Below are positions 11,647-26,159 of a stretch of DNA of 26,480 nucleotides, piece after piece. Below the pieces are notes generated by a model. It saw nothing but the letters and a program-made list of their open reading frames with translations. It did no database searches and had not been told where the DNA came from. The stretch's first letter is position 1; each line of letters opens with the position of its first letter. The translations under genes were made by a program, and so were the position numbers. The stretch comes from a virus, in IMG/VR virus record IMGVR_UViG_3300043543_000720, positions 1-26,480 of that record; one strand, written 5' to 3'.

Positions 11647-11808
11647 GGCGTCGTCTCCACCAGCGGGCACGCGCGACGATCCAAAGATGTGATCCGACCA
11701 AGACGAGATCGCGGCCGAACGTGCCACGACCCAAAAATACCCCTCTTTCAAGTAAATTTTTCCATTTTTTTGAATTGACCGATTGTCTCGCCTCGGCGTT
11801 GCTCTCGA
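11647..11808 (-). promoter_or_regulatory. Upstream region of the RHS gene
   Basis: 162 bases between the methyltransferase stop and the RHS start. It contains an AT-rich block around 11750-11775 (runs of T on the plus strand), unusual in this GC-rich window, which may hold the RHS promoter. No -35/-10 pair fits well enough to name. The RHS ribosome-binding site GGTGGAG lies at its proximal end (about 11655-11661). Confidence 0.35.
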
Positions 11809-12729
11809 TCATCGAACGAGCCAGAGAGTCCAGTGCTCCTGCGGATTGGCCAGGATCGTGTCGGCCTCGACCGGCACCACCTCGCCCTCGTAGTTGATGG
11901 CGCGGAGCAGGTAGCCGGCGCGTTCGATCTGGTGCAGGAAACCGACCGTCTGCGGCGAGTCGCGCTGGAGGTGCAGCTCGAGGACAATTGCGGCGTGTAG
12001 AAAGCGACGCAGCGTCTTCTGCATCCCCTCCCAGACCAGGGCCTCCGCACCCTCGGCGTCGATCTTCACAAGATCGAGGCGGGGCCAGTCGGCACAGAGG
12101 CGGTCGAGGGTGATCGCCGGCACTTGGACCATGCCGCAGCGGTGGGCGTAGGCCCAGCGCTCCAGCGACGACGTAGCGAAGTCACCGTCGTGCAGAACGA
12201 AGTCCACCGTGCGGTCGTCCACGTTGCCGACGACCTTCGGACAGATCTCGACGCCGTGGTAGAACCCGTTGAGCGCCATGTTCTGCGGCAGGTAGGTTCC
12301 CGCCAGGAGCGGGTTCGGCTCGCACGCGACCACTCGCCCTTGCGGGCCACAGGCGGCGGCCATCAGCAGCGCGTAGTAGCCGTAGTTCGCCCCGACATCG
12401 ACGCAGTGAAAGCCCGGTTGAATGTACCACGCCAAGGCGAGCGTCACCCACGCCTCCCAGAAGCCGTCCAGCACCAAGCGCGGCCCGAGCATGAAGTCGC
12501 GAGTATCGACGAAGGCGAGGTACTCGCCCAAAAGCCGGCAGAGCATCCTGTGCTCGCCGTAGTAGACGCCGGCGGCCCGGCGCCGGCTGACCTCTTCCAG
12601 GTCGGCCCGCCATTCACCCTCACCCAGGCAGCGAACCTGCGCACTTACCTCCGCGGACAGCTTCGGGAGTCGTTGTCCGCAGAGGACAAGCGGTCGATGG
12701 AGCAACTCACGGACCCGAAGTCCGAACAT
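11809..12729 (-). CDS. FkbM-family SAM-dependent methyltransferase
   Basis: A 306-residue protein from ATG 12729, which has GAGG five bases upstream. The frame is open to an ATG at 12843, but the extra 38 residues lack a ribosome-binding site and look non-coding. The Rossmann glycine motif VDVGANYGYYALLMA is at about residues 110-124, the acidic residue of strand 2 follows in VVACEPNP, and the FkbM signature LVKIDAEGAEALVWEGM is at about 220-235. FkbM-type enzymes O-methylate sugars, polyketides or other small molecules using S-adenosylmethionine; the substrate here cannot be read from the sequence. The ~100-residue N-terminal helical part is of unknown function. The gene lies upstream of the RHS gene on the same strand, 162 bases from it, and is divergent from the DUF1559 gene; a functional link to either is not shown. 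Confidence 0.9.
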   Translation of the reverse strand: MFGLRVRELLHRPLVLCGQRLPKLSAEVSAQVRCLGEGEWRADLEEVSRRRAAGVYYGEHRMLCRLLGEYLAFVDTRDFMLGPRLVLDGFWEAWVTLALAWYIQPGFHCVDVGANYGYYALLMAAACGPQGRVVACEPNPLLAGTYLPQNMALNGFYHGVEICPKVVGNVDDRTVDFVLHDGDFATSSLERWAYAHRCGMVQVPAITLDRLCADWPRLDLVKIDAEGAEALVWEGMQKTLRRFLHAAIVLELHLQRDSPQTVGFLHQIERAGYLLRAINYEGEVVPVEADTILANPQEHWTLWLVR

Positions 12730-12934
12730 GACTTCCTCAAACGGCCGGACCTGAACGTCGCCACCGTCTCGACCGTGTATGAGGGCAAGGACTCGATGTC
12801 GAGCACGTTGACAGGCGTCCTCCCCGAATCTGTTCCGACCCATGGACCGGGCGCTGATGCCCTTCGCCGGTGCTGGCGAGGCACAGACCTACCCCCTCCT
12901 GCGAGTTGGTACAACCGACAAATGCGCGTGGATG
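12730..12934. other. Intergenic, no gene supported
   Basis: Between the methyltransferase start and the promoter region of the DUF1559 gene. 12730-12843 could belong to the methyltransferase if its upstream ATG is used. I see no other coding or structured element here. Confidence 0.4.
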
Positions 12935-12981: not shown

Positions 12982-13057
12982 TAAAAAAGACTGAGCGCAA
13001 ACTTCTCCATGCGCTGCTTCTGTTGTGTTCTCGGACTCGTCACAGAAAGGAGACATC

Positions 13058-14215
13058 ATGACCACCGCTCACCAGGATCGCCTCAACCTGTCCGGGGCAT
13101 CGGATAGGAACCCACTAACCTTTTCCCTTACCCAAGGAGTGTCCACGGCTTTGGCATCCTTGCGCAAACAAGCGTCGCAAGTCCTTACGCGATTGACGCA
13201 AGTTCGTATTGTGGCAGTGAATCCAGCAAGGATGCCCAAGCCAGTGTCCACTATGAGTCAGAGGCTTCGCCGGTCGGCGCTCACGCTGATCGAATTGCTG
13301 GTGGTTATCGCCATCATCGGCATCCTCATCGGCCTCCTCCTGCCTGCCGTGCAAAAGGTTCGGGAGGCCGCCGCGCGGATGCAGAGCGCGAACAACCTCA
13401 AGCAGATTGGGCTAGCGATGCACAACCACCACGACAGCCTCGGCCGGTTCCCGGCCGGCTATCTGGCGAACACGCGTGACCCGAGCGCGAACCCGGAAAC
13501 CCTCGACGCCCCGCCGGGCTGGGGATGGGGGGTACAGCTGCTCCCCTACCTGGAGCAGGAAAACCTATACAAGCAGCTGCGCCTCGACCTGCCGGCCTGG
13601 CACCCCGCCAATGCCACCCTGGTGAAGACGAACCTCCAAGTGTTCATCAACCCCGCCGCGCCGAACAGCAGCCCCACAATACTGGTTATGAACGAGTCCG
13701 GAATTGTGTTGGCCGAGTGGGGCCGGTCGCACTACGTGGTGAACAACGGGCAGGACGAGTCCTGGGCGTACCCCCGGCACGACCTGTCAGGCATCCCTGG
13801 CACCGGCCCGTTCTACCGCAACTCCAGGGTACGCATCGCGGACGTGACCGACGGGCTTTCGAATACCGTGTTCGTTGGCGAGCACACGACGGTCAGTGAC
13901 AAGACGTGGGTCGGCGTCCACCCCGATGCGGTATGCTGCCCTATCGACCCCAACCTGTTCCCGTTCACCGAGTGCGACGGCCCCGCGACGTTGGTCATGT
14001 GTCACAGCGGCCCAGCGGCGGGTGAGCCTGGGGTCATTCACCCGCCGAGCTTCCCGACCTGCCACGTCTGCCAGATGTATGCCCCTTGGGGGAGTGGCGG
14101 CGGGCTGGTACTGTTCGGCGACGGCCACGTCCAGTTCATCCCGACCTCAATCAACCTCAACACTTGGGCCGCGCTGTCCAGCATGAACATGGGGGATGTA
14201 CCCGGTGAGTTCTAA
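13058..14215 (+). CDS. DUF1559 pseudopilin-like protein
   Basis: A 385-residue member of the planctomycete DUF1559 family. ATG 13058 is preceded by AAAGGAG with 5-base spacing; an in-frame GTG at 13025 is less likely. The type IV pilin-like segment LTLIELLVVIAIIGILIGLL begins near residue 76, followed by PAVQKVREAAARM, the conserved NNLKQIGLAMHNHHD, the LPYLEQENLYKQL block, VTDGLSNTVFVGEH, and the C-terminal GDGHVQFIPTSI motif. These proteins are made as prepilins, cleaved at the inner membrane, and probably build surface or periplasmic structures; the exact function is unknown. Unusually, about 65 residues precede the normal start (the Met at residue 66, 13253), giving a leader much longer than a prepilin peptidase substrate normally has. 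The second gene overlaps its 3' end. Confidence 0.92.
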   Translation: MTTAHQDRLNLSGASDRNPLTFSLTQGVSTALASLRKQASQVLTRLTQVRIVAVNPARMPKPVSTMSQRLRRSALTLIELLVVIAIIGILIGLLLPAVQKVREAAARMQSANNLKQIGLAMHNHHDSLGRFPAGYLANTRDPSANPETLDAPPGWGWGVQLLPYLEQENLYKQLRLDLPAWHPANATLVKTNLQVFINPAAPNSSPTILVMNESGIVLAEWGRSHYVVNNGQDESWAYPRHDLSGIPGTGPFYRNSRVRIADVTDGLSNTVFVGEHTTVSDKTWVGVHPDAVCCPIDPNLFPFTECDGPATLVMCHSGPAAGEPGVIHPPSFPTCHVCQMYAPWGSGGGLVLFGDGHVQFIPTSINLNTWAALSSMNMGDVPGEF

Positions 14216-14642
14216 CCACGACGACGAGGCCCCCGACCGCCGCCGCCTCTGGTGGCTGGTAGGGATCGCTGGGGTACTGGCGATTCCACTGCTGGTCATC
14301 TGGTGGCCGGGATGCCGCCAGTACCCGGCGGTGTCCAGCAAGGAGTCGCTGGAACTGATGAAGCTCTTGTACACCGCCTGCAACACCAAAGACTTAGCCC
14401 GGCTAGCGAAGGTCGAGCAGGGGTTGGAGAAGCTATCCCGCGAGGGAAAGATGACGCCCGCCGAGAAGGAAAGCTTCGACAAGATCGTCGCCATAGCCAA
14501 GAAGGGCGAGTGGCAGGACGCCGAAAAGGCGGCCCTCAAGTTCGCGCAGGACCAGGTAGGCCAGGGGCACCCGGCTCCGCAGACGGACGACCACCGCCTC
14601 GACCACAAGGGCAAGCCGACCAAGGGCGGCCCGAAGCGGTGA
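14205..14642 (+). CDS. Small membrane-anchored partner of the DUF1559 protein
   Basis: A 145-residue protein from GTG 14205, with GGGGG about 9 bases upstream; ATG 14196 in the same frame is the alternative. The start overlaps the end of the DUF1559 gene, so the two are translationally coupled. Residues ~14-32 form one hydrophobic membrane segment (WWLVGIAGVLAIPLLVIWW), followed by a Cys in WPGCRQYP that does not fit a lipobox well. The rest is soluble and helical, lysine-rich (LELMKLLYTACNTKDLARLA, GLEKLSREGKMTPAEKE), and ends in a polar tail. It probably sits on the outer face of the inner membrane beside the DUF1559 product. From memory such small proteins often follow DUF1559 genes in planctomycetes; no biochemical role is known to me. 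Confidence 0.85.
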   Translation: MSSNHDDEAPDRRRLWWLVGIAGVLAIPLLVIWWPGCRQYPAVSSKESLELMKLLYTACNTKDLARLAKVEQGLEKLSREGKMTPAEKESFDKIVAIAKKGEWQDAEKAALKFAQDQVGQGHPAPQTDDHRLDHKGKPTKGGPKR

Positions 14643-14768: not shown

Positions 14769-14936
14769 CTAGCGGCGGTGTTCTGGTTCTCTGACCGGCA
14801 AGGAGAACGCAAAGTTATTTGAACATGGAAGAGGTGATGGGCCGATTGCCGGGATGCCCGGGCAGCCGACGGCGTAGAACGGTACGTCGTCTTTCGAGCC
14901 CACGCAGCGGGCCAGGTAGCGTTGCTCCCGGATCAT
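14769..14936 (-). CDS. Small ORF at the 3' end of the phage operon
   Basis: A 55-residue ORF whose ATG overlaps the TGA of the preceding structural gene (ATGA at 14936-14933), the same coupling used elsewhere in this operon. It encodes MIREQRYLARCVGSKDDVPF followed by a proline- and cysteine-containing stretch ending in EPEHRR. I recognise no family. It could be an intact small phage protein or the N-terminal stub of a longer gene cut off at the boundary of the element. Confidence 0.45.
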   Translation of the reverse strand: MIREQRYLARCVGSKDDVPFYAVGCPGIPAIGPSPLPCSNNFAFSLPVREPEHRR

Positions 14937-15631
14937 TGGTTGATGTCCACCACCTTGCACGGAAAGAGCGTCTGCCAGGTCTTGGTCGCCACGTCGTAGC
15001 GCTGCACCTCGCCGGGGTAGTAGCCGTTCTCATCCGGCACGTTGCTGGTGATCAGCACGTGGGCCTGGGCGTCGCCGTGATCCAGCCGCACAATGGCCCA
15101 CCGCCGATACAGCGACGACGGATCGCTTGGGTCGTAGGGTTGAATCCACAGCACCCGTGCCGAACCATGCGGCACGTTGCGCAGCTTCTCGGTATCACCG
15201 GGGATGATCTCCGCGCCGTCGTAGAGCTGCGCCGGATCGACCGCCAGCCGCACGGGGACGACGCCGGCGATGACGGCCAGGCCGATCTGGCCTGCCGCCA
15301 CCGGCTCCAGCAGGACGGCGAACCGCCCCGCATGATGGTTCTGCACGGGGACCACGCCCTGGAACGTCACCTGCCGCTTGAACTCGTCGAGGTTGTCGGC
15401 AGGCAGGATGAGGGGAGTCGTCAGACCTAGGACGGCGAAGCGTGCCTGGTCGGAACCGGAGGCGTTCTTGACCTTGACGATGCCGCTTTGGCGGAAGAAC
15501 GGTGATGCCTCGGTGCCGAACTGCTTGTGTTTGCGTACGGCGCGGGCGGCGTCGAGAAAGGCATTGTACGCCTCGGCGGTGATCTCCAGCCGTTGGCCCG
15601 GCTGGACCTTCTTGAAGGCGTCGCCAGCCAT
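14933..15631 (-). CDS. Conserved phage structural protein, function unknown
   Basis: A 232-residue protein whose ATG overlaps the stop of the upstream gene (TGATG at 15633-15629). It opens with FKKVQPGQRLEITAEAYNAFLDAARA, which reads like an oligomerisation helix, then a beta-rich body (VTFQGVVPVQ, GRFAVLLEPVAAGQIGLAVI, VVPVRLAV) and ends in YDVATKTWQTLFPCKVVDIN. The layout resembles small phage base-plate or fibre-attachment proteins found after the tape measure in planctomycete prophages, from memory and not verified. No catalytic motif is visible. Confidence 0.75.
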   Translation of the reverse strand: MAGDAFKKVQPGQRLEITAEAYNAFLDAARAVRKHKQFGTEASPFFRQSGIVKVKNASGSDQARFAVLGLTTPLILPADNLDEFKRQVTFQGVVPVQNHHAGRFAVLLEPVAAGQIGLAVIAGVVPVRLAVDPAQLYDGAEIIPGDTEKLRNVPHGSARVLWIQPYDPSDPSSLYRRWAIVRLDHGDAQAHVLITSNVPDENGYYPGEVQRYDVATKTWQTLFPCKVVDINQ

Positions 15632-16422
15632 CAGGTGCCGATCCCCAAAAGCGAGAAGTCCCCATACGGGTAAACCTGCTCCACGTAAACGGCTGCGGGC
15701 TGTTTAACCAGCACGTCGGCGTCTTCGGCGTCCTGGTAGCGGACCCAGAGGTATTCCCAGCCCTTCTTGTCGATGCCGGTAATGTCGCCGACGACGAGCC
15801 CTGTGACGTTGGGGCTGGCGGCGAAACTGAAGGTGATCTCCCAGTCTTCGGTGCCACGCTGCGAACCCGAGGCCCCCAGGAAGAGCACCTCGCCCGGCGC
15901 GAAGCCCTTGAAGGGCGCGCCGTTGACCTTGCCCGTGAGGTAGAAGAGGGTCGCCTTGTAGGCGGGCGTGACCAGCGCGATGGGGATGTAGTGCGTTTCC
16001 TTGAAGTTGTAGACCGGGATGGTGATGTCGGTCCCTTCGACCGAGTCGTTGTTGACGCCGATGGCCCCTTTGAAGTCAGGCGGGTCCTCACCTGGCGGGG
16101 CGTAGCTGTTGACTGTTTGCAGGCTTTGCGTGATGTGGGTGGTCCCGCCGCCGGTGTCAAATGAAAACGACGACTCTCCCGGCTCCTTCGGCTCTTTCTT
16201 GCCGTAGCGAACCGAGACCTCCCACAGCCCGCCGCCCTGGTGGGCGATGTGGTAACTCTGGAAGACCAGGCCGGCATACAGCGCGGGGATGGTGGACTCG
16301 ACCAGAGCCCGGACCACGGCATCGCTTTCCGTCCCATCGACCACATAGATCAGGTCCACGGACGGGTTTTCGACCCCCACGGTACTCTCGCGGCTGTCGT
16401 AACGCTCGATGATGACCGGCAT
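15631..16422 (-). CDS. Conserved phage tail-region protein, function unknown
   Basis: A 263-residue protein from ATG 16422 with GAGGAA upstream. It opens with MPVIIERYDSRESTVG, then NPSVDLIYVVDGTESDAVVR and a GGGLWEVSVRYGK block; the second half is beta-rich with FAPGEVLFLGASGSQRG and WEITFSFAASPNVTG. It lies directly after the tape measure gene, where distal-tail or tail-tip proteins are normally encoded, so a distal tail role is likely by position. I cannot assign a named family. Confidence 0.75.
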   Translation of the reverse strand: MPVIIERYDSRESTVGVENPSVDLIYVVDGTESDAVVRALVESTIPALYAGLVFQSYHIAHQGGGLWEVSVRYGKKEPKEPGESSFSFDTGGGTTHITQSLQTVNSYAPPGEDPPDFKGAIGVNNDSVEGTDITIPVYNFKETHYIPIALVTPAYKATLFYLTGKVNGAPFKGFAPGEVLFLGASGSQRGTEDWEITFSFAASPNVTGLVVGDITGIDKKGWEYLWVRYQDAEDADVLVKQPAAVYVEQVYPYGDFSLLGIGT

Positions 16423-16432
16423 GTTCTGTTCC

Positions 16433-18415
16433 TCACGCGAAGACCAGGCCGCCGTTCTGGGCCTCGCGGACCAGCTTGTCGGTGTTCTTGGCGATCTGTT
16501 CGCTGGCCCGGGCGGTGCGCTCGGCTAGGCTGTCGGACCCGAGGCCCGCGACGGCGAAGGCACTGAAGGTGCCCTTGACGTCGGTCTTGGCCTCGGCCTC
16601 GTCCAACCCTTCGAGGTCGAACTCGGGGCGACGCCGCAGAGGCTTCTCACGCTCCATCGCCGCCAGCTCGCGTTCGAGTTCCGCCTGCTCGCGCTGAGCG
16701 GCCAGCTCGGCGGCGCGCTGTTCCAGCGCCCGCTGGGCAGCGGCGACACGCTCCTGGTCGGCAGCGTTGGCCGCCTCCAGCTCCCGCTGCCGCTCGCGGC
16801 GCTCTTCTTCCTGCATCTGGTTCAGCGCTTCCTCGCGCTGCCGGCCGGCCTCCCGCGCCTGCTCGACACGCGGTGCCAGTTCCCGCACTCTTCGGTCAAG
16901 CCGCGCGCGGGCCTCGCGGTTCTGCTGCTCGACCTCGCGGTTGATCGCCTCAATCTCGCGCTGCGCCGACTCACGATTGAAGATGTTCCGCACCCGCGCC
17001 CAGGCCCGGCGGAAGAAGCCGACGAACTCGTTGAAGGCGATCCGCAGGCCTGTGCAGAACATGTCCCAGCCGTCCGCCAGGGCGTTGACCACGGTCCAGA
17101 AGGCGATCTCGATCCCCGTCCAGGCGGTGTTGAAGGCGCGGGCCACGGCGTAGACGGCGCTCCAAAACAGCTCGACGAAGAACGACTTGAAGCTGCGCCA
17201 GGCGGCGGTGAGGGCGGCGATGCCGGTCTCCCAGACGACCTGGATGCCGAGCCAGGCAACCTCCATTGCCCCGGCCAGGTCGCCGGCCGCGATGGCATCT
17301 TGAATGCCTTGCCAGGCGGTTCCTGCCACACCCAGCAGTTGCTCGAACCCCTGGCCCAAGGATTCCAGGGCCAGGTTGCCTTCGTCGGTGGCGAACAGGA
17401 CGGCGGCCGCGATGCCGCCCACGGCGGCGACGACCAGGCCGATGGGGGATAGCAAAAAGCTGATGGCTGCACCCAGTAGGCTGACGGCGGTCGTGGCCGC
17501 GGAAATAGCGAACGTGACCAGGCCAATCGCCGAGCCGATGGCCGAAAGGAGCGGGCCGAGGACCAGGAGGGCTGCACCGACGCCGGCGATGCCGGCCACG
17601 ACCGCGCCGATGATGCTGATCAGCGCGCGGTTTTCCTGGAGCCAGCTGCCGATGAGGGCCACCACCCGGGTGATCCACTGAGCCACTTGCTGGATGGCTG
17701 GGGCCAGGGCTGCTCCGACGGAGAACGCGGCCTGTTTGAGCGCCTTCCACAGAGCATTCAAGGCATTGCCGAAGGCCTCCGCCGCTTCGGCATCTTCGGT
17801 ACTCATAGTCAAGCCTAAACGATCTGCCTCGTCGCGTAGCTCGCGGATACCTTCGGCTCCCGAGGAGAGCAACGGTAACAGGTTGGCCCCCGTCCGGCCG
17901 AAGATCTCCATCGCAATCGTGGCGCGGTTGGCCGGGTTCTGAATCCGCGACAGGCGGTCGGCGATCAGCTCGAACTGCTGGTCGGGCGACAGGCCGGTCA
18001 GGTCGGCGATGGTCAGCCCCAGCCTCGACAGGTTCCGCCGGCCCTGCGCCGACCCGCGGGCGGCCTCGATGATGCTCCGGCTCATCGTGCGGAGGCCCTT
18101 CTCCAGGTCCTCCGCGCCGGAGCCCGACTGCTCGGCGGCGTAGCGCAGCTCAGACAGTGCCTCCACCGTCACGCCCGTCCGCTGCGACATGTCGAGCATG
18201 TCGCTGCCCATGTCCGCGAACAGCTTGGCCGCGCCCAGGAAGGGGAGCGCGAGCGTGGTCCCCAGGCCCACGATCCCCGCCCCCACCGACATGATGCTCG
18301 CGCCGAACGCCTTTAGCCTCGCGGCCGCGGCGTTGAGCCCCTTGACGAGCCGGCTGTCCTTGACGAACAACTCGACGTAGGCGGCACCGGCGCGAATCCC
18401 CGAAGCGGCGGCCAT
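16433..18415 (-). CDS. Phage tail tape measure protein
   Basis: A 660-residue protein from ATG 18415, with AGGAGG five bases upstream; the in-frame GTG at 18421 lies inside that site. The N-terminal ~200 residues match the TP901-type tape-measure core (AAAARLKAFGASIMSVGAGI, then MLDMSQRTGVTVEALSELRY). Several long hydrophobic alanine/glycine stretches (about residues 255-340) may form the membrane-penetrating part. Residues ~480-590 form a long charged coiled coil (EQREEALNQMQEEERRERQ-like). The length sets tail length, and 660 residues suggest a tail of about 100 nm by the usual 1.5 Å per residue rule. It is preceded by the chaperone genes, as in siphophages. Confidence 0.93.
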   Translation of the reverse strand: MAAASGIRAGAAYVELFVKDSRLVKGLNAAAARLKAFGASIMSVGAGIVGLGTTLALPFLGAAKLFADMGSDMLDMSQRTGVTVEALSELRYAAEQSGSGAEDLEKGLRTMSRSIIEAARGSAQGRRNLSRLGLTIADLTGLSPDQQFELIADRLSRIQNPANRATIAMEIFGRTGANLLPLLSSGAEGIRELRDEADRLGLTMSTEDAEAAEAFGNALNALWKALKQAAFSVGAALAPAIQQVAQWITRVVALIGSWLQENRALISIIGAVVAGIAGVGAALLVLGPLLSAIGSAIGLVTFAISAATTAVSLLGAAISFLLSPIGLVVAAVGGIAAAVLFATDEGNLALESLGQGFEQLLGVAGTAWQGIQDAIAAGDLAGAMEVAWLGIQVVWETGIAALTAAWRSFKSFFVELFWSAVYAVARAFNTAWTGIEIAFWTVVNALADGWDMFCTGLRIAFNEFVGFFRRAWARVRNIFNRESAQREIEAINREVEQQNREARARLDRRVRELAPRVEQAREAGRQREEALNQMQEEERRERQRELEAANAADQERVAAAQRALEQRAAELAAQREQAELERELAAMEREKPLRRRPEFDLEGLDEAEAKTDVKGTFSAFAVAGLGSDSLAERTARASEQIAKNTDKLVREAQNGGLVFA

Positions 18416-18417
18416 CC

Positions 18418-18618
18418 TCACCTCCTGTCCACGAACACCTGCTTGAGCACCTCAATCGACGCCTTGCGCACCGGCAGCTCCCGCCGACGCTGGTAAGGGT
18501 TGAAGTCTGCCGGCTTGTAGGGCGTCGGCTTCTTGCGCGGGTCGCGATGGCAATTCGCCAGGAGTGCCAGCACCGCCGACGTGTGGGACCAGCGTTCCCG
18601 GCAACGGGCCTCGGCCAT
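18418..18618 (-). CDS. Tail assembly chaperone, second (T-like) part
   Basis: A 66-residue ORF from ATG 18618, sharing its A with the stop of the previous gene (TGATG). It holds ALLANCHRDPRKKPTPYKPADFNPY, a segment that in many phages follows the first chaperone part just before the tape measure (the lambda G/GT arrangement). In lambda the second part is fused to the first by a ribosomal frameshift; here reinitiation at TGATG or a slip near it could do the same. It ends three bases before the tape measure ATG. Confidence 0.75.
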   Translation of the reverse strand: MAEARCRERWSHTSAVLALLANCHRDPRKKPTPYKPADFNPYQRRRELPVRKASIEVLKQVFVDRR

Positions 18619-19118
18619 CAAGACGAGTTCCCGGAGGGTGAAAGGTCCGGGGTCGATTCCGAGGACTCCGGCGCAATGCCAAAGGAGCGCAACAACCTGT
18701 TCGCTTCGCGGTCGGCGTCGAAGCCCTCCAGGACCTTCTCCGCCCGGCCCAGCAGCCGGTCCCGGACCTTCCGGCTCTCGGCCACGATCTTGCGCAGGCT
18801 GCTCCGCGCCCTCGCTTCGGGGAAAAAATCGATCAGTTCCTCCAGGAAGGCGTCCGTGGCCAGGGTGATCGCGTCGCCCGCCAGCGCCCGGCCGAAGTCC
18901 TCGTCGCTGACCTTCTTGGCGTCCGCCTCGTCCTTGCAGAGGCAGTACAGCACGTCCGCGAGCATCACCGGGTCGCCGACCAGGGCGCCCAGCGGCTTGA
19001 AGCCGTCGTCCACCAGCTTGTACAGGTCGACATTGAGCAGGCCCCGGACGCGCTTGATCGCCGCCACGTTGATGGCGATGGTCCAGGTCCGCCCCGCGTT
19101 GTCGGTAAAGGTGTGCAT
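18618..19118 (-). CDS. Tail assembly chaperone, first (G-like) part
   Basis: A 166-residue protein from ATG 19118, with AGGAG seven bases upstream. The frame is open further upstream but that sequence overlaps two other genes and is not protein-like. It begins MHTFTDNAGRTWTIAINVAA and contains DPVMLADVLYCLCKDEADAK, EDFGRALAGDAITLATDAFL and LIDFFPEARARSSLRKI. Position between tail tube and tape measure, and the tandem second part, indicate the chaperone that coats the tape measure during tail assembly. Confidence 0.8.
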   Translation of the reverse strand: MHTFTDNAGRTWTIAINVAAIKRVRGLLNVDLYKLVDDGFKPLGALVGDPVMLADVLYCLCKDEADAKKVSDEDFGRALAGDAITLATDAFLEELIDFFPEARARSSLRKIVAESRKVRDRLLGRAEKVLEGFDADREANRLLRSFGIAPESSESTPDLSPSGNSS

Positions 19119-19120
19119 CG

Positions 19121-19321
19121 TCACTCTCCTGCGCTGGGTTGTTCCAGTTGGCGGCGGTCGATGATGACTCCCGAGCACGGGCAATGCAGGTGCATGTAAC
19201 TCTTGGCGTCCCCTTCCTCGGCGAAGGCCGCCAGCAGACGGCGGCAAGCCCTGTCGGCGAAGACCAGGAAGTGAAGCACGTTTAGGCCGGCCAGGGGTTC
19301 CATAATTCGATCCTCGATCAT
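19121..19321 (-). CDS. Small Cys-containing protein, function unknown
   Basis: A 66-residue ORF starting in an ATGA overlap with the stop of the trypsin-like gene (19321-19318) and ending two bases before the chaperone start. It has a helical N-terminal half (LNVLHFLVFADRACRRLLAA) and a C-terminal HLHCPCSGVIIDRR segment whose His and Cys residues could bind a metal. No family recognised. The tight coupling supports it being a real gene. Confidence 0.6.
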   Translation of the reverse strand: MIEDRIMEPLAGLNVLHFLVFADRACRRLLAAFAEEGDAKSYMHLHCPCSGVIIDRRQLEQPSAGE

Positions 19322-20361
19322 GGCTTGACGTCGTGGCCCGCCGTGCAGATCGGAACTGGCAGCGGCTGCCAGCCGTCGTCATGATCGATGGGCCAGGCGC
19401 GAATGGGGATCGGTACGGGCACCCAGGCGTCCTCGGCGTCGGCAGGCTTCGGCCGGGTGCGGCGAATCACTTCGGCGGCGGCGCCCCACATGGCCACCCG
19501 CCGACCGACCTCACTGGTGCAGCAGACCACCGAGACGAGTTCGTTGGTGTCGGCCCGGAAAATGCCACCGCCGGAGTCGCCCGAGGATACGCTCAGTCGC
19601 ATTTGCAACTGACCTTGGGCGTTCTCGCCGACAACCACGACGCCCTCCTCGCGGTTGCCCGGTCGGTCCACGCCGAAGCCCATGTGCCAGACCGGCGTAT
19701 CGACCGGCGGATTGCTCTCGGCGATCACGGCGTAGGGCAGGTCCTTGACCTCGTCGTCGGTGACGCACCAGGCCACGTCCGGCGTCTTGTGGTAGGCCAC
19801 GACGCGGATCCCGAACGAACGGTTGTCCTTGAGGGTCAGCGTCCCTCGCGCCCCCACGCCCGAGACGCAGTGGGCGGCGGTCAGCACGTCCCAGCGGCCG
19901 TCGGGCCGCCGCGGGCCGATCACGGTCGCGGTGCAGCCGGCGTTCCCGAAGCGGATGCGGCCCAGGGCATTGACCGGGTCCAGCTTGCCGCCCTCCGGCG
20001 GCTTGGGGTCGGGCTTGGGCGGCACCGGCGGCACCGGCGTGCAGGACTCGATAGTCACGCTAACACGGGCTTCCTCGACCGAGAGGTTGCCGTCGGTGTT
20101 GCTGATGACGAGCAATTCCACCTCGTAGGTGCCGGGGTGGGCGACGAACTCCAGCACCCCGCGCGGGGTGGTCGCCCGCTGCACGCCCTGCGAGGGGTAG
20201 ACGCGCCACAAGAGCGCGGCTTTGGGATCGACGTTCTCGGCACGCAGCCGGACCAGGGAGTGGGGCTTGTACTTCGTCTCGCCCGCGATGCGGAGCGTGT
20301 CTGCCCGCGCCGCGGCGGGGGCGAGTGCCAGGACCAGACAGACCAACGGAATCGAACGCAT
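19318..20361 (-). CDS. Secreted trypsin-like serine protease within the tail operon
   Basis: A 347-residue protein with a classical signal peptide (residues 1-20, cleavage after ARA), from ATG 20361 behind GAGGAGG. Residues ~22-105 form a beta-rich Ig/PKD-like domain, ~108-125 a proline-rich linker, and ~128-300 a trypsin fold. The triad is visible: His164 in LTAAHC, Asp195 in TPDVAW and Ser263 in GDSGGG. A C-terminal ~45-residue tail follows. It would act outside the cytoplasm, cleaving proteins after export. A signal peptide is unexpected between tail tube and chaperone genes of a phage. The gene is nonetheless fully part of the operon, 18 bases after the tail tube gene and ATGA-coupled to the next. 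It may be a cargo gene benefiting the host, or a virion or host-surface processing enzyme. Confidence 0.9.
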   Translation of the reverse strand: MRSIPLVCLVLALAPAAARADTLRIAGETKYKPHSLVRLRAENVDPKAALLWRVYPSQGVQRATTPRGVLEFVAHPGTYEVELLVISNTDGNLSVEEARVSVTIESCTPVPPVPPKPDPKPPEGGKLDPVNALGRIRFGNAGCTATVIGPRRPDGRWDVLTAAHCVSGVGARGTLTLKDNRSFGIRVVAYHKTPDVAWCVTDDEVKDLPYAVIAESNPPVDTPVWHMGFGVDRPGNREEGVVVVGENAQGQLQMRLSVSSGDSGGGIFRADTNELVSVVCCTSEVGRRVAMWGAAAEVIRRTRPKPADAEDAWVPVPIPIRAWPIDHDDGWQPLPVPICTAGHDVKP

Positions 20362-20379
20362 GGTGCCTCCTCAGGGGGA

Positions 20380-20820
20380 TCAGGGAACGACGATCCAGGC
20401 CGGCGGATTGACCGAGTATGTGGGCTTGACCGTGACGCTGACGGTGATGGCCTCCTCGAGTGCCTCGTTGCGGCTAAAGTTGGTCACCATGCAAGTCGCC
20501 CGCAACCCTTGCGAGCCGCTAGTTCCGATGTCGCCGTCCATCACCGCGAACTCCAACGCTGCACGATTGAGGAATGCGTCGCGGATCACGGCGAAGTCAT
20601 CGTCGGCCGTGTCCCAGACCATCTCAAACTCAATCGACGCATCCTTGAGCGTGGCAACCGTAGCGCGCCAGCCGAGCGAGCCGCGTGTGGTCACGTCCGC
20701 CTCGCCGGCTTCCAGGTTCAAGGTCACGTCCTTGACGTTCCTGATCTCGTTCCACACGGGCACGGTGTAGGTCCCCGTGTTCCGATACAGCCTGGCATCA
20801 AGACCGAGTTTGACTGCCAT
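20380..20820 (-). CDS. Phage major tail tube protein
   Basis: A 146-residue beta-rich protein from ATG 20820, behind AAGGAG with normal spacing. Features typical of siphophage tail tube proteins are DARLYRNTGTYTVPVWNEI at the N-terminus, then VKDVTLNLEAGEADVTTRGS and IEFEMVWDTADDDFAVIRDA. The final segment (ITVSVTVKPTYS) is a strand of the same fold. It polymerises into the hollow tail tube around the tape measure. Its place after the tail terminator gene agrees with this. Confidence 0.85.
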   Translation of the reverse strand: MAVKLGLDARLYRNTGTYTVPVWNEIRNVKDVTLNLEAGEADVTTRGSLGWRATVATLKDASIEFEMVWDTADDDFAVIRDAFLNRAALEFAVMDGDIGTSGSQGLRATCMVTNFSRNEALEEAITVSVTVKPTYSVNPPAWIVVP

Positions 20821-20832
20821 AAGCGTGTCTCC

Positions 20833-21264
20833 TTAGCGAACCGAGTTCCGCCACAAAGCAGGAAGTCGGGGCATTTCCGCTTCCAGGGCCGGCCGCATGA
20901 ACGGCCGGGGCCGGTAGCGCGCGCGGCGCTGGCCGCCCCGGTCCTCGATCACCGCCGTGCCGCCGTGCTCCAAGAGCCGGGGTGCTTGGGAATCGTCTCG
21001 CAGCAGCGTCGGGCCGATGACGACGCTTTGGCGCTGCGGGTCGTAGGCGAACAGGATGAACTTCCGCAGCAATCCCACGTGCGAATAGGGTGGCGACCCC
21101 GGCGGGCTCGTTCCCTTGCGCTTGCGGATGGAGGTCTTGGCCCGCTGCCGCACGAACGCGCCGAACTTCGACAGCACCTTCCGCGTCCCGGCATCGACCG
21201 ACCGCTGGACCTTATCGCGGTCGAAGAAGCCGCCTTTGACCGCCTGGAGCGTCATGCCGATCAT
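20833..21264 (-). CDS. HK97 gp10-like / minor tail protein
   Basis: A 143-residue protein from ATG 21264, with GGAGG six bases upstream. It carries the family features SPPGSPPYSHVGLLRKFI, VVIGPTLL, LEHGGTAVI and the C-terminal YRPRPFMRPALEAE. Proteins of this type sit at the head-tail junction or tail completion site. The basic middle (RQRAKTSIRKRKG) is usual for the family. It lies between the tail terminator and the tail tube genes, as expected. Confidence 0.82.
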   Translation of the reverse strand: MIGMTLQAVKGGFFDRDKVQRSVDAGTRKVLSKFGAFVRQRAKTSIRKRKGTSPPGSPPYSHVGLLRKFILFAYDPQRQSVVIGPTLLRDDSQAPRLLEHGGTAVIEDRGGQRRARYRPRPFMRPALEAEMPRLPALWRNSVR

Positions 21265-21267
21265 GCC

Positions 21268-21693
21268 TCACCTCCACACGCGAAAGGTCAGCGTGATGAC
21301 GCTGGTGAACTGGCGGAACTCGTCCAGGTGTTCCAGCGAGTAGACCGGCTCGTTCTTCACCTCGGTGCAGCGGGCGTTCGGATAGCTGGCCAATGGCTGC
21401 GTGCGGAAGTGGTCGGCGATCTCCTCGACCAGCGTCATCAGGGCGTCCAAAGACGCCTGGCTCATGTCAGTCCGCTGCTGCACCGCCACGTCGATCTGGT
21501 ACTCGAAACTATCGCGGTTGCGGTCGAGCCCGTTCGCGACCACCGCCCGCGGCACGACGCTGACCTTCAGGCTGGTCATCTCCGCCAGCTCGAACCGCGG
21601 CTGGTAGTGCCGCACGGCGGTGACCGGCCGGCTGAACGGAGTCGCGTTCAGTTGGGCGACCACGGCATCGGCGATGTCCAGGATGACGGCCAT
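21268..21693 (-). CDS. Putative tail terminator protein
   Basis: A 141-residue protein whose ATG directly follows the TAG of the gene before. It starts with AVILDIADAVVAQLNATPFS, then YQPRFELAEMTSLKVSVVPR, and ends in TSVITLTFRVWR, a pattern of helix and long strands like lambda gpU-type tail terminators. The assignment rests on position and general fold impression, not on a decisive motif. Confidence 0.65.
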   Translation of the reverse strand: MAVILDIADAVVAQLNATPFSRPVTAVRHYQPRFELAEMTSLKVSVVPRAVVANGLDRNRDSFEYQIDVAVQQRTDMSQASLDALMTLVEEIADHFRTQPLASYPNARCTEVKNEPVYSLEHLDEFRQFTSVITLTFRVWR

Positions 21694-22074
21694 CTATTCC
21701 GTCCCGACCTGCTTGGTGTGAATCCGCAGCACCTTCCGGTACACGTCGGACCAGCGCCACGCTGGCTCCTGGCCCGGCGCCATAACTTCGTAAATGAAGG
21801 TCTTGGCACCCTGCGTCTCGCGGATCTGGTCGCCTCGTTGCGGCAGCGTTGGCACACCCCCGAGCACCAGGTCCGCGGCGTGGATCAGGAAGTCGCGGTC
21901 GGTCCATTCCATCCGCACACCGCCGTAGCCGTCGTCGAGCTTGAGCAGCGTCCGGCCCACCGTGGCTAGAACCGCGACCTCGAATGCACCACGGCGGTAG
22001 ACAACTTGCCGTGAGGCATGTGTCTTGAGCTGGTCGGCCAGCCAGTCGGAGCCGGTTTGCAAGAGGTCGGGCAT
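21694..22074 (-). CDS. Putative head-tail connector / stopper protein
   Basis: A 126-residue protein four bases downstream of the second decoration gene. It opens with DLLQTGSDWLADQLKTHASRQVVYRR and ends in RWSDVYRKVLRIHTKQVG. Small proteins at this position close the head and join it to the tail (lambda FII or SPP1 gp16 role). No firm motif is visible, so the role is by position. Confidence 0.6.
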   Translation of the reverse strand: MPDLLQTGSDWLADQLKTHASRQVVYRRGAFEVAVLATVGRTLLKLDDGYGGVRMEWTDRDFLIHAADLVLGGVPTLPQRGDQIRETQGAKTFIYEVMAPGQEPAWRWSDVYRKVLRIHTKQVGTE

Positions 22075-22078
22075 GGCA

Positions 22079-22405
22079 TTACTGGCTTAAGCGTACACGC
22101 ACAGTGGTATCGGTGGTCGCAGCGGCACGCACGACCTTGCCGAGCGGCTTGTTGCCCGTCGCGGTCGTCGTGACGACGTTGTTCGTGTCGTCCCAGTAGA
22201 GGATCTGGCCGACCGTGTAGGCGACGCCCGTGCTCTTGGCGAAGTCGAAGACTCCCTCGACCGCCAGGGCCCCGAGTTGGCCCGCCTTGATGTCGAGCTT
22301 GGCCACGCCGACCAGGTCCCCCTGCACGACCACGTCCCCGGCCGCCACGTCGGCCGCCGGCGTGTAGTCGATGGTGGCCCCATCGTGGACGAAGATCGCC
22401 TTCAT
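22079..22405 (-). CDS. Capsid decoration protein (DUF2190-like), copy 2
   Basis: A 108-residue protein of the DUF2190 type: FVHDGATIDYTPAADVAAGDV at the N-terminus, VVQGDLVGVAKLDIKAGQLG in the middle, and a GNKPLGKVVRAA C-terminal strand. Such proteins sit on the capsid surface and stabilise it. It is a tandem paralogue of 22412-22741. A 46-residue stretch (IDYTP to FDFAK) is identical between them, while the last ~50 residues differ more. Confidence 0.82.
   Translation of the reverse strand: MKAIFVHDGATIDYTPAADVAAGDVVVQGDLVGVAKLDIKAGQLGALAVEGVFDFAKSTGVAYTVGQILYWDDTNNVVTTTATGNKPLGKVVRAAATTDTTVRVRLSQ
22235..22374 (-). repeat. 140-bp near-identical block, decoration gene copy 2
   Basis: Matches 22568-22707 at a constant offset of 333 bases with only two mismatches; flanking parts of the two genes are clearly more diverged. 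Confidence 0.9.
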
Positions 22406-22411
22406 GATCGC

Positions 22412-22741
22412 TTACTGGCTCAGCCGAAAACGGACCCGCGCGTCGGCTGCCGCGGCGGCGCGGACGCATTTGCCCAGCAGCTTGTTTCCGGTAGCCGTCG
22501 TGGTCGCCTGCTGCGCGGTGGCATTCCAATACACCAAAGCCCCGACGGTGACGGCAGAACCGGTCGCCTTGGCGAAGTCGAAGACTCCCTCGACCGCCAG
22601 GGCCCCGAGCTGGCCCGCCTTGATGTCGAGCTTCGCCACGCCGACCAGGTCCCCCTGCACGACCACGTCCCCGGCCGCCACGTCGGCCGCCGGCGTGTAG
22701 TCGATGGACGCGCCTGCGTGAACGAACACAGCTTGGGCCAT
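22412..22741 (-). CDS. Capsid decoration protein (DUF2190-like), copy 1
   Basis: A 109-residue protein from ATG 22741 behind AGGAAGGA, nine bases after the capsid gene. Same layout as copy 2, with YWNATAQQATTTATGNKLLG in the C-terminal half. Two decoration genes in tandem could give a mixed capsid surface or reflect a recent duplication. Confidence 0.82.
   Translation of the reverse strand: MAQAVFVHAGASIDYTPAADVAAGDVVVQGDLVGVAKLDIKAGQLGALAVEGVFDFAKATGSAVTVGALVYWNATAQQATTTATGNKLLGKCVRAAAAADARVRFRLSQ
22568..22707 (-). repeat. 140-bp near-identical block, decoration gene copy 1
   Basis: Partner of 22235-22374. The sharp change from near-identity to divergence suggests gene conversion in the 5' half of the genes. 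Confidence 0.9.
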
Positions 22742-22750
22742 CGGTCCTTC

Positions 22751-24730
22751 CTACGCTTCGCCTTTGCTCTTGATCCCGGCCAACGGCTCGGCCAGATCAA
22801 CCCCAAAATCGAAATACCCGCGGAACTGCATCCCCAGCTTGTGGAAGTCGGCCTCCGCCGCCTCCACCGTCGGCGTCTGCACCCCGTCGAGGAAGCTCAC
22901 GACCACAGGAGCTAACACCCCCGGATCGCGGAACAAGTACCACGCCTTGGCGCTCGACCCGGCGAACTCCGGGTCGCTCAGCCAGTCGGCGACGACCGGA
23001 CGGTAGCGGCCGGCGTGGATGTTGGCCGTGCCCAGCGTGCCACCACTGCCGGGATCAACCGTGGTGCTCTGGTAGAGCCGCTGGGCCACGAACTGCAACT
23101 CCGGCGGCACGAGCAGGATCGTCGGCACCCCGCCAATCCGCTTCTTGTCGGGAGACTTCAACTTCCGGAAAGCGGTGATCCCCTTCTGCAGCCCTACGCC
23201 GTCGTCGCCCAGCGCCGTTTCGGCCCCCGTGATGTAGTTGCCCAGGGCCGCGGTGAAGAAGCTGGCGTTGTTGAGGAACGTCTTCCAGAAGACGCTGTTG
23301 AGCTTGCGGGCGGCCCCGGCCCCTAGCCGCGTGCGGATGTCGTCGAACGCCCCCAGATCGTCGTCGATGATCTTGTCGCGGGTCAGCACGAACATCCGGC
23401 CGTAGGTGCGGGCTTGCCGGGTGTAGGTCTCCTCCGACACCGTGCCGTGCTTCAGTTCGCCGTCGGGGGCGACCTCCTCATACTCCAGGTTGTCCAGCAG
23501 GCGGTGGCTGGTGACGGTCTTGAAGTCGCTGACCGAGCGGACGACGGCGATGTCACGCCAGGTCTGATCCTGCTCCTGGTAGGCCTCCCGCAGTTCCTTG
23601 TTCAACAGATTCGATAGGATGTTGGGCAGCGACAGGGTGCTGGCCCCCGAGGCCCGCAAGGTCAGCGGCACAGTCCAGGCGTAGTAGAGGGCGTCGCGGA
23701 GGTTGCTGGAGTCGATGAACGGAGGACCGGTGTAGCCATTGGCCTGGGCCGCCAGGTAGATGGCATGGCGGATGCGGAGCCGCCGGCCGAAGCGGTCCTC
23801 GGCGGCCTGCAACAGATCGGGCGGGTAGTGGCGCTCCGGGTGCATGGGCGTGCGGGTCAAGGCCAGGGCCGCTTCCAACAGTTGCGCCGTGGAGTAGCGG
23901 TCGCTCGTAGCGCCGCCGGCAAGGTACGGCCCTTGCGGGCGAGAGGCCCGCAGCAATGCCAGTTCGGTCTTGCTCAGGTCCCAGCCTTGCTCGATGGCCT
24001 TGGCTTCGATGTCGGCGTGCTGCCCGGCACAGAGCTTGCGGATGGCGGCGATCCGCTGGACCTCGGCCGCGGCGGCCGCCCGGATGGCGGCCACCTCTGC
24101 TTGGGCCGACGCCGTGGCCGGATGGCTATCAGCAAGCTCGGGCCCTGGCGTGTCCCCATCGGCCCCCTCCTGCGTGGCGGCGATCTGGGCCGAGGTGTTC
24201 TCGTCCGCGCCGAGCACCACGAAGCTGATTTCCCCCAGCGTCGCCCGCCGGACGATGTTGACCGGCCCGGCGAACTCCCGGCCGTTGGCCTGCGACGTCT
24301 TCCCCTCCGGCAGGAACTCGACTTGCTCGGCCCGCGCCCCGATGGACGCCTGCCAGGCGAAGCCCTTGTCGGCCAGGGCCATCACTTGCCGGGCCTTGGG
24401 CGAATCGCCCAGGATGTGGCCGGCGACGATGAGCTGGTCGTTCATCACCGCGACCGAATCGGTCTGGCCCAAGACACAGTCCACGTCACGCTGGTGGTCG
24501 AGCAGGATGGGCCGACGCTGCCGGCCGGTGTCCAGGCCGGCCAGGTCGACCACGACCGGATAGCGCCAGCCCGCCAGCTGCATCGCCCCGCCGGTGTAGG
24601 CGGTCATGGTGAAGCGCCGCGGCTTCTGGGCGTCCCCTTCGCCCGGAGCCGCTTCCAGCTCGACCGCGGCGGCCAGCAGGTTCAGCCTGCGGCTCTCCAG
24701 GGGCTTGCTCAGTACGTTCGGCTTCGTCAT
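22751..24730 (-). CDS. Prohead protease fused to Mu gpT-like major capsid protein
   Basis: A 659-residue protein from ATG 24730, with GAGGAA seven bases upstream. Residues ~40-185 look like a prohead serine protease: His79 in LLDHQRD and Ser129 in WQASIGA are the likely catalytic pair, followed by FAGPVNIVRRATLGEISFVVLGADENT. An alanine- and glutamate-rich linker (~190-260) resembles a scaffold delta domain. Residues ~290-655 are an HK97-fold capsid protein of the Mu gpT type (GRMFVLTRDKIIDDDLGAFDD, FWKTFLNNASFFTA, MQFRGYFDFGVDLAEP). In such fusions the protease cuts itself and the linker away during capsid maturation. It lies between portal and decoration genes. Confidence 0.9.
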   Translation of the reverse strand: MTKPNVLSKPLESRRLNLLAAAVELEAAPGEGDAQKPRRFTMTAYTGGAMQLAGWRYPVVVDLAGLDTGRQRRPILLDHQRDVDCVLGQTDSVAVMNDQLIVAGHILGDSPKARQVMALADKGFAWQASIGARAEQVEFLPEGKTSQANGREFAGPVNIVRRATLGEISFVVLGADENTSAQIAATQEGADGDTPGPELADSHPATASAQAEVAAIRAAAAAEVQRIAAIRKLCAGQHADIEAKAIEQGWDLSKTELALLRASRPQGPYLAGGATSDRYSTAQLLEAALALTRTPMHPERHYPPDLLQAAEDRFGRRLRIRHAIYLAAQANGYTGPPFIDSSNLRDALYYAWTVPLTLRASGASTLSLPNILSNLLNKELREAYQEQDQTWRDIAVVRSVSDFKTVTSHRLLDNLEYEEVAPDGELKHGTVSEETYTRQARTYGRMFVLTRDKIIDDDLGAFDDIRTRLGAGAARKLNSVFWKTFLNNASFFTAALGNYITGAETALGDDGVGLQKGITAFRKLKSPDKKRIGGVPTILLVPPELQFVAQRLYQSTTVDPGSGGTLGTANIHAGRYRPVVADWLSDPEFAGSSAKAWYLFRDPGVLAPVVVSFLDGVQTPTVEAAEADFHKLGMQFRGYFDFGVDLAEPLAGIKSKGEA

Positions 24731-26159
24731 CGTCAGGTTCCTCTTCGTCCAGTTCCGCCGTCGGCTGGGCCTGTGCCGGCGTCAGGCCCAGCTCACGCAT
24801 CAGGGCCAGTTCCTTGGCTCGTTGGCGTAGGGCCTCTTCCCAGTCCCGGCCCTGTCGGGCGTACTCGTGGGCCAGCGTCGTCGTGTGATGGGCCAGGCGC
24901 GTCGCCTGGGCACTGGCTTCCTTGGCGGGATCGACGTGTTCCTGGCCGTCCCAGAACCACTGGTGCGGCCAGTCGGCAATGGGACCGAGGCCGGCAGGCA
25001 GGAAGCCAGGAATCAGCGCGGCCTCGTCGAGCCAGGCAGCCAGGATGCGGTCGAGGACGGCGCATTCGAGGTGCGCCTGCTCGACGCGGATGGCCTTGAA
25101 GTAAGTCTGATGGTCCAGCCGGCCGGAGGCGTAGTTGTAGCCCGACGAGTTGCCGGCCGCGACGTTGAACGGCATGTTCAGGCAACGGGCGATCTCGTTG
25201 AGGATTTCGCGTTTGAACTCGGCGTAGGTCGTGGCGGGCTGTTGCGCCTCCAGTTGGCTCATCTTCCAGCCGCCCGGCATGGTGACCAGAGCCCGCTGCT
25301 CCAGCTCGATGGGCTCGAACGGCTCGGCGGCATCGGCCTCGCCGCCGGCCGGGGCGTCGGTGTACAGGATGCCGGCGAAGTCAGCGGCGGTCTCGGCGGC
25401 CGCGATCACCGCGAGCGTAAACCGCCGCAACTGGGCAAAGAGCGGCAGGGCCGGCAGGATGTCAGGCACACCCCGCGCCTGGCCCGGCCGGTCGGCCCGG
25501 AACCAGTGCAACATGGCCGCGGCGGGGATGCGGTCGTACTCGGTTCCCAACCGCCGCATGGCCTCGCCGGGATGCTCTTTCAGGACGTGGTACTCGACCG
25601 GGTTGCCGAAGGCGTCGAAGACGATGCCGTCGACGGCGTTTTCGCCCAGGGCTTTGGGGTCCGGCGTTGCCACCTGGTCGGCCTCGACGAGCCGCAGGTC
25701 GAGCTGCACCGGGGTGGGCAGCTTCGGGTTGTTGGTCAAGATGGCGAACGCCTCACCATCCTGGGCCCGGGCCATGCGCATGGTGCGGAGCTTCTCGGCC
25801 AAGTTGACAGACTTGGACCAAGTTGCGAAGGCTTGCTCGATGCGGCGGTTGGCCTCGGCGTCGTCGGTGAGCATCTGCAGGCGGGGTCCGGTGCCGATCA
25901 CGTCGTTGGCTAGTGTCAGGACGATCCCTTTGGCGTAGCTGTTGTTGGCGACCTCGTAGCGGGCACGGTTGCGGAGGATGCGCCGCACCTCAGGGCTATT
26001 GGCGGCGTTGGCGGAGAGGCCATCGGCGTTGGCCCAGTGGCGGCGGTTGTCGTCCGTGGTCACCGCCGCGTCGTAGCGGGCGCGGAGCAGCCGGGGAGCG
26101 CGACGCGGGGGATGCCCCGCTGCTCTGGGCGTGAACAGATTGGACAACCAGCGAAACAC
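24486..26159 (-). CDS. Phage portal protein, lambda type
   Basis: A 557-codon frame starting with GTG at 26159, directly after the TGA of the small upstream gene. It matches lambda-type (GpB) portals: ARYEVANNSYAKGIVLTLAN near residues 68-87, VIGTGPRLQ, MRMARAQDGEAFAILTNN, a GIVFDAFGNPVEYHVLKEHP block, and FKREILNEIARCLNMPFNVA with GYNYASGRLDHQTY. Portals form the 12-mer ring for DNA entry. The last ~80 residues, after an acidic EEEPDDDEAE stretch, overlap the capsid gene by 245 bases and consist mostly of Gly, Arg, Ala and Pro. That looks like an out-of-frame reading of the capsid gene, so the true C-terminus may be near 24730. Confidence 0.92.
   Translation of the reverse strand: MFRWLSNLFTPRAAGHPPRRAPRLLRARYDAAVTTDDNRRHWANADGLSANAANSPEVRRILRNRARYEVANNSYAKGIVLTLANDVIGTGPRLQMLTDDAEANRRIEQAFATWSKSVNLAEKLRTMRMARAQDGEAFAILTNNPKLPTPVQLDLRLVEADQVATPDPKALGENAVDGIVFDAFGNPVEYHVLKEHPGEAMRRLGTEYDRIPAAAMLHWFRADRPGQARGVPDILPALPLFAQLRRFTLAVIAAAETAADFAGILYTDAPAGGEADAAEPFEPIELEQRALVTMPGGWKMSQLEAQQPATTYAEFKREILNEIARCLNMPFNVAAGNSSGYNYASGRLDHQTYFKAIRVEQAHLECAVLDRILAAWLDEAALIPGFLPAGLGPIADWPHQWFWDGQEHVDPAKEASAQATRLAHHTTTLAHEYARQGRDWEEALRQRAKELALMRELGLTPAQAQPTAELDEEEPDDDEAERTEQAPGEPQAEPAGRRGRAGSGSGRRGRPEAAALHHDRLHRRGDAAGGLALSGRGRPGRPGHRPAASAHPARPPA

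Follow-up and report, generated by a model that had tools for sequence, protein, structure and literature searches.

The closest described systems to the locus reported here are the holin-endolysin-spanin modules of phages, the pseudomurein endoisopeptidases PeiW and PeiP of methanogen viruses, and the periplasmic proteases HtrA, DegP and DegQ of clan PA. Exported endolysins exist, in the form of SAR and signal-peptide endolysins. For archaeal viruses, exit by a "holin plus S-layer protease" has been raised as an idea, with no enzyme known (PMC4456609). The exit of phages from bacteria without peptidoglycan still awaits an explanation, and debate over what protein contributes structurally to planctomycete walls dates from the 1980s. 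According to published work, the Gemmataceae lack peptidoglycan genes, and cysteine-rich YTV proteins are found in preparations of their walls (PMC8567305). Whether the phylum contains peptidoglycan was long disputed (PMC10632474); that article cites Jeske 2015 for the dispute on some peptidoglycan in planctomycetes of this group. A 2017 study knew of no isolated Gemmata phage genome (PMC5707555), and neither trypsin nor planctomycetes come up in the main text of a survey from 2025 on the lytic proteins of prokaryotic viruses (PMC12596118). Here we describe a Gemmatales phage operon with a protease gene in its interior. We call the product Ig-trypsin and present it as a candidate lysis enzyme.

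Gene organization of the window

The window, meaning the whole stretch of DNA that was analyzed, is an IMG/VR record of 26,480 bases. A late operon containing the tail genes runs on its minus strand from 26357 to 14933, in the order connector, portal, protease-capsid fusion, two decoration proteins, head-tail joining, two neck genes, tube, Ig-trypsin, g66, g166, g67, tape measure, g263 and g232. The operon belongs to a prophage of Gemmatales (Planctomycetota) and encodes a whole phage with head and tail. A terminase is present in relatives of this phage.

The genes are given here in minus-strand order. In the ORF of the portal protein (24486–26159; PF05136, E 2e-62) a frameshift close to the 3′ end is probable: the final 80–90 residues are the capsid gene read out of frame, and relatives stop at ~485–498 aa. 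The head protease-major capsid fusion (22751–24730; PF25209, phrog_4523) is followed by two head decoration proteins (22079–22741, as 22412–22741 and 22079–22405; phrog_122), the head-tail joining protein (21694–22074; PF25138, E 2e-46), the conserved head-tail gene g141 (21268–21693; synteny), a weakly matched tail completion or neck protein (20833–21264; phrog_5, E 0.007) and the tail tube protein (20380–20820; PF06199, E 1.3e-8; phrog_1407). On the other side of Ig-trypsin and g66 lie g166 (18618–19118), g67 (18418–18621), which is weakly similar to minor tail protein T (PF06223, E 0.0016, below the cut-off), and the tape measure protein (16433–18421; phrog_8462, E 2.4e-45). They are followed by the conserved tail-operon protein g263 (15631–16422) and by g232 (14933–15631), the final conserved tail-operon gene ahead of the fibre region, both assigned by synteny.

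The sequence-only reading had the coordinates of the Ig-trypsin gene exactly right (19318–20361), and the gene lies on the minus strand. It also placed the gene between tail tube and chaperone genes. The tube is confirmed by PF06199, whereas the chaperone is only presumed. It would be g166, two genes downstream and before the tape measure, which was assigned by position and conservation and has neither a Pfam nor a PHROG match. An ATGA coupling of Ig-trypsin to the next gene is doubtful. The 66-aa ORF at 19121–19321 starts homologously at M8 (ATGGAACC, about 19300), which aligns with the start in L110, L111 and L120. The gene, g66, is therefore probably 19121–19300 (minus strand; 59–61% identity to g66 of L110, L111, L119, L120 and L130). 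From the alignment, the apparent ATGA overlap probably stems from an ATG that lies ahead of the g66 start, and with the M8 start the two genes are some 17 bp apart.

At 13025–14642, on the strand opposite to the operon, the window carries a DUF1559 pilin-like gene (PF07596) and a small gene. At the corresponding site relatives carry a collagen-like fibre gene and a mannosyltransferase-like gene before FkbM. The DUF1559 pair is a host insertion or replacement within the prophage. Several genomes have an FkbM methyltransferase gene after the prophage, followed by a gene for a large RHS/FG-GAP protein (window 4753–12843, minus strand; L054, L061, L212). FkbM seems to be part of the phage, and the RHS gene may mark a common integration neighborhood.

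Domain structure of Ig-trypsin

Ig-trypsin has 347 aa and is laid out as a signal peptide, an Ig-like domain, a proline-rich linker, a Trypsin_2 domain and, in the C-terminal tail, a pair of WxPxxIP motifs. Judged by eye, residues 1–21 (20299–20361; MRSIPLVCLVLALAPAAARA followed by D) are a typical Sec signal peptide, and the same type is retained in relatives. In the AlphaFold2 model (mean pLDDT 78) the N-terminal domain is all-beta (24–104), consistent with an Ig-like fold. We place the Ig-like beta-sandwich at residues 23–107 (20041–20295).

The trypsin-like (HtrA-fold) domain spans residues 131–305 (19447–19971). PF13365 (Trypsin_2) matches residues 143–276 with an E value of 1.7e-10 and 42.2 bits against a cut-off of 27.6, and PF00089 is likewise above its cut-off. 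The protease domain of the model resembles HtrA/DegQ protease domains in Foldseek (E about 1e-7, TMt about 0.7); the sequence search of the PDB gave no match. His164, Asp195 and Ser263 are invariant across 33 aligned trypsin relatives, down to 51% identity. By sequence, triad and model, Ig-trypsin is a member of the trypsin-like fold, and proteolysis is predicted. An exported trypsin-like protease with this triad and an Ig-like N-terminal domain had been named from the letters alone, and this reading is confirmed at the level of sequence and model. The Pfam search of Ig-trypsin returned only Trypsin and Trypsin_2, with no PDZ and no murein hydrolase domain. The lack of the latter is expected if the host has no murein.

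The C-terminal motif pair (W313 and W331; 19351–19425) is well kept: at least one WxPxxIP copy is present in 32 of the 33 relatives and two copies in most. Similar W-x-P repeats occur in the thioredoxin-like partner described below, e.g. "PPWQPTPRVDPWQPQP" in L145. It is possible that WxPxxIP is a shared wall- or partner-binding signal. The Ig-trypsin ORF at L177:6302-7450 is extended in frame at its N-terminus by a stretch containing hydrophobic, holin-like segments, which may be a membrane domain joined to the protease.

Conservation and distribution of Ig-trypsin

We searched for the same gene at the same position in relatives. Ig-trypsin relatives are carried by 57 viral contigs and 7 genomes at 50–87% identity, and the order tube-trypsin-g166 is kept in nearly all 64 loci. 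The gene is thus not one that is absent from all relatives and bounded by insertion scars. The median pairwise dN/dS of Ig-trypsin is 0.30, close to the values of its neighbors (0.34 for g166, 0.28 for g143 and 0.19 for the tube). By this measure Ig-trypsin is under purifying selection. A few copies are degenerate (L048, L052, L061, L064), as would suit a chance insertion of a host protease or a decay product. However, the many carriers, the nearly constant site, the dN/dS and the invariant triad lead us to reject that origin. The suggestion of a host-type cargo gene is also not favored, given the same position in most relatives and the purifying selection.

Matches to Ig-trypsin were found in 16 of 102 Gemmatales genomes (a few fragmentary or weak), with three copies in one genome. 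This patchy, multi-copy distribution fits prophages and not vertical inheritance. A tailocin or gene transfer agent was rejected on the same distribution and on the presence of head genes. Processing of a secreted tail-like particle, another function offered by the sequence-only reading, lost ground for a related reason: the operon encodes a whole phage, with portal, capsid fusion, joining, tube and tape measure proteins. Among the annotated phages of INPHARED there was no relative of the trypsin, tube, papain or thioredoxin proteins. A phylum-wide search, in which at most five candidates per genome were scored, found Ig-trypsin in the centre genome only, which is weak evidence that this protein is restricted to Gemmatales.

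Several single loci deserve mention. At L063:6286-7350 a lone Ig-trypsin gene lies amid host genes (transketolase, a toxin-like gene), and its surroundings contain no phage genes. The contig of one trypsin-bearing prophage also encodes, at L179:3107-4348 near FkbM, a secreted serpin (PF00079, E 7e-111); this proximity of a protease inhibitor to a protease may be chance. In some relatives another gene interrupts the tape measure gene: an ECF-sigma-like gene in L122 (9921-11219), a TnpB-like gene in L161 (7966-9090) and a DUF1559-like gene in L120 (near 13403). These three are decaying prophages.

Protease genes in related phages

Among relatives, the slot between tube and g166 contains Ig-trypsin, nothing (15–50 bp) or an unrelated papain-type cassette. 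The last was found in L110, L111, L119, L120, L130, L149, L151, L153 and genome G008. In most of them it consists of a protein of ~95 aa with signal peptide and TM segment, an exported papain-fold peptidase of 205 aa, a TM-anchored exported protein and a small TM protein. Cys, His and Asn of the peptidase are invariant, and its model, of modest quality, is C39/papain-like in Foldseek, with PeiR among the distant matches (E 0.04). The g66 gene is otherwise seen alongside the papain-type cassette. Because of this pairing the window looks, by gene content, like a cassette hybrid in which the trypsin has replaced the papain genes. A second variable slot exists in the neck region, where L145 and L152 carry two large genes (712 and about 430 aa) inserted between head-tail joining and g141.

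Where the slot is empty, relatives often encode an exported protease at another operon position. It is a trypsin with signal peptide and TM segment in L160 and L157, and a trypsin with signal peptide in L158. In L129, L145, L152, L155, L161, L163, L165 and L166 it is a papain-fold peptidase with an exported thioredoxin-like TM protein. L164 (Trypsin_2 5e-12, Thioredoxin_2 2e-8) and L162 encode a trypsin-thioredoxin fusion. L056 joins a thioredoxin-like domain to an Ig domain of the Ig-trypsin family, and this fusion adjoins a papain-like gene. We rejected Ig-trypsin as an invariant core gene, since many relatives have an empty slot or a different cassette there.

These positions bear on whether Ig-trypsin is a virion protease that acts at entry, sitting in the tail tip and opening the protein wall from outside or processing tail proteins. 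A gene between tube and g166 would suit this role, and digestion of the wall at entry would also suit a protein-walled host. However, the Sec signal peptide in nearly all relatives would divert the protein from virions assembled in the cytoplasm. In addition, the gene shifts in relatives to other slots and to the operon end, and many relatives do not have it. We regard a role at entry as quite improbable.

Trypsin and papain relatives exclude each other. They occur together in 0 of 299 loci. After dereplication there were 66 trypsin and 76 papain groups with none shared, in which the groups are still related and the counts non-independent. Papain loci were counted by presence or absence only, because their neighborhood listing at times labels the gene beside the papain ORF, and the adjacency of papain and thioredoxin genes was read separately from the neighborhoods. 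A second sample was drawn with the tail tube as query, which avoids the bias of a trypsin-based search. Its 43 groups, over the visible span, comprise 21 with trypsin, 11 with papain, 11 with none and 0 with both (Fisher p 2e-4, kinship ignored). The 11 groups without a protease in the available sequence (L107, L113/L115, L114, L117, L122, L123, L124, L127, L131, L136, L159) are mostly fragments. Counting all loci over a narrower span, from decoration to g263, also yielded 43 groups, with trypsin in 25, papain in 12 and neither in 6; L198, one of these six, is the phage of L056, which has a papain-like gene. The two 43-group samples differ, and their equal totals are accidental. G113 (29.7 kb, integrase to FkbM) has no protease throughout; the rest of this phage is missing and its tape measure is interrupted.

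The protease gene can also be read as an accessory gene (a moron, or lysogenic conversion). The exported protease would then serve the lysogen, or the phage outside lysis, by cutting a surface receptor for superinfection exclusion, digesting surface proteins of rivals or feeding the host. We consider this unlikely. In its favor, the slot is empty in many close relatives, and L063 holds a solitary host copy. The identity of the trypsin is weakly correlated with that of its neighbors, which indicates that the trypsin moves by recombination. Against these points, Ig-trypsin is packed within a late operon and is exclusive with unrelated exported proteases, not one of a varied cargo. No sigma-70-like promoter was found upstream of Ig-trypsin and no terminator in the region (minus strand, 18400–21300), which is a weak test because planctomycete promoters are poorly modelled. 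Finally, an accessory role would leave two near-complete phages without any wall hydrolase that we could see.

Host wall and lysis genes

PF00905 (PBP transpeptidase) and MurG over its cut-off were each found in 0 of 102 Gemmatales genomes. PF00905 was found in 10 of 14 control genomes, namely the peptidoglycan-bearing ones. With no peptidoglycan genes in Gemmatales, a murein hydrolase would have no substrate.

The two near-complete temperate relatives, G105 and G110, encode an integrase, repressor or replication genes, a terminase, structural genes and glycosyltransferases by Pfam. No murein hydrolase was detected among the best 25 of 42 Pfam families in each and ten proteins followed up. In Gemmata prophages (L174; G016, G017) the trypsin gene is the last of the tail operon, and three to four small genes come after it, some of which encode hydrophobic segments. 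The end of the tail operon in these prophages is the usual place of a lysis module. Small TM genes also adjoin the papain cassettes. The small TM neighbors have no significant match to holin families, L164 shows weak DUF2570 similarity, and the window has no holin-like gene or membrane partner beside the trypsin.

These membrane genes leave room for a later step in release or spread, in which the protease cuts an outer protein layer or extracellular matrix after an unrecognized lysis protein, so that it is spanin-like or matrix-degrading. The hosts are diderm, and the TM proteins of the papain cassettes and the DUF2570 similarity would fit. Such a step is improbable in our judgment; no other candidate wall hydrolase was seen in the two near-complete phages.

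Proposed function

We propose that Ig-trypsin is an exported lysis protease, the cell-wall-degrading enzyme of phage exit or "proteolytic endolysin". Judged from sequence comparison, we think this is probably its role, without high confidence. Ig-trypsin would be made late with the head and tail proteins, as its place in the operon suggests, and exported by its predicted signal peptide. Its trypsin domain would cut structural proteins of the host cell wall, and the Ig-like domain and WxPxxIP tail might bind the wall. In related phages the same job would fall to other trypsins, to fusions of trypsin and thioredoxin, or to papain-fold peptidases paired with a thioredoxin-like protein that is exported and membrane-anchored. 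The thioredoxin-like partner would open disulfides of a cysteine-rich protein wall. If the wall is protein, exit would call for a protease, which in other cassettes has a thioredoxin partner.

The signal peptide, the late operon, the lack of a murein hydrolase in two near-complete relatives and the one-for-one swaps with papain cassettes together point to wall digestion from inside at the end of infection, not at entry. Digestion of surface proteins during infection was the closest of the earlier suggestions. It would become digestion of the host wall from inside at lysis. Several points weigh against a lysis role: the window has no holin-like gene beside the trypsin, the small TM neighbors match no holin family, 11 of 43 groups show no protease in the available sequence, some peptidoglycan in planctomycetes of this group has been a matter of dispute, the interior of a tail operon is an unusual site for lysis genes, and the patchiness of the gene also fits an accessory gene.

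More broadly, and more tentatively, it is quite possible that in phages whose planctomycete hosts lack peptidoglycan the endolysin has given way to interchangeable cassettes with an exported trypsin- or papain-fold protease, often joined by an exported, membrane-anchored, disulfide-breaking thioredoxin-like protein, and that these cassettes dissolve a cysteine-rich protein wall. If so, this would be a lysis strategy for bacteria that is undescribed in the literature we searched. The phages would be independent, evolution-tested evidence that protein, probably disulfide-linked, bears load in Gemmatales walls. The cassettes would supply enzymes for dismantling this wall. The endolysin idea would be widened beyond murein and pseudomurein, and planctomycete phage biology would gain a testable gene set.

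Comparison with known systems

Compared with holin-endolysin-spanin modules, the genes described here likewise lie in a late operon, with at most one kind of putative wall-degrading enzyme per locus, swapped among relatives for unrelated enzymes, and with membrane proteins beside the enzyme in several relatives. They differ in that the enzyme is a trypsin-like protease, or a papain-fold peptidase with a thioredoxin-like partner, and no murein hydrolase is detectable. The host has no peptidoglycan genes, no holin is recognized, and in the group of the window the site is within the tail operon. Ig-trypsin would act like an endolysin, yet as a protein family it lies outside all known endolysin families.

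PeiW and PeiP are similar in being virus enzymes suited to a non-murein host wall. However, they cut isopeptide bonds in pseudomurein and not a protein wall, and we know of no trypsin version of them. HtrA, DegP and DegQ share the fold of the catalytic domain and the export. In contrast to them, Ig-trypsin has no PDZ domain, carries an Ig-like domain and a WxPxxIP tail, and is phage-encoded. The S-layer exit idea for archaeal viruses follows the same logic, in which a virus leaving through a protein envelope requires a protease. That idea is a proposal only, whereas Ig-trypsin and its counterparts are a concrete and widespread candidate in bacteria.
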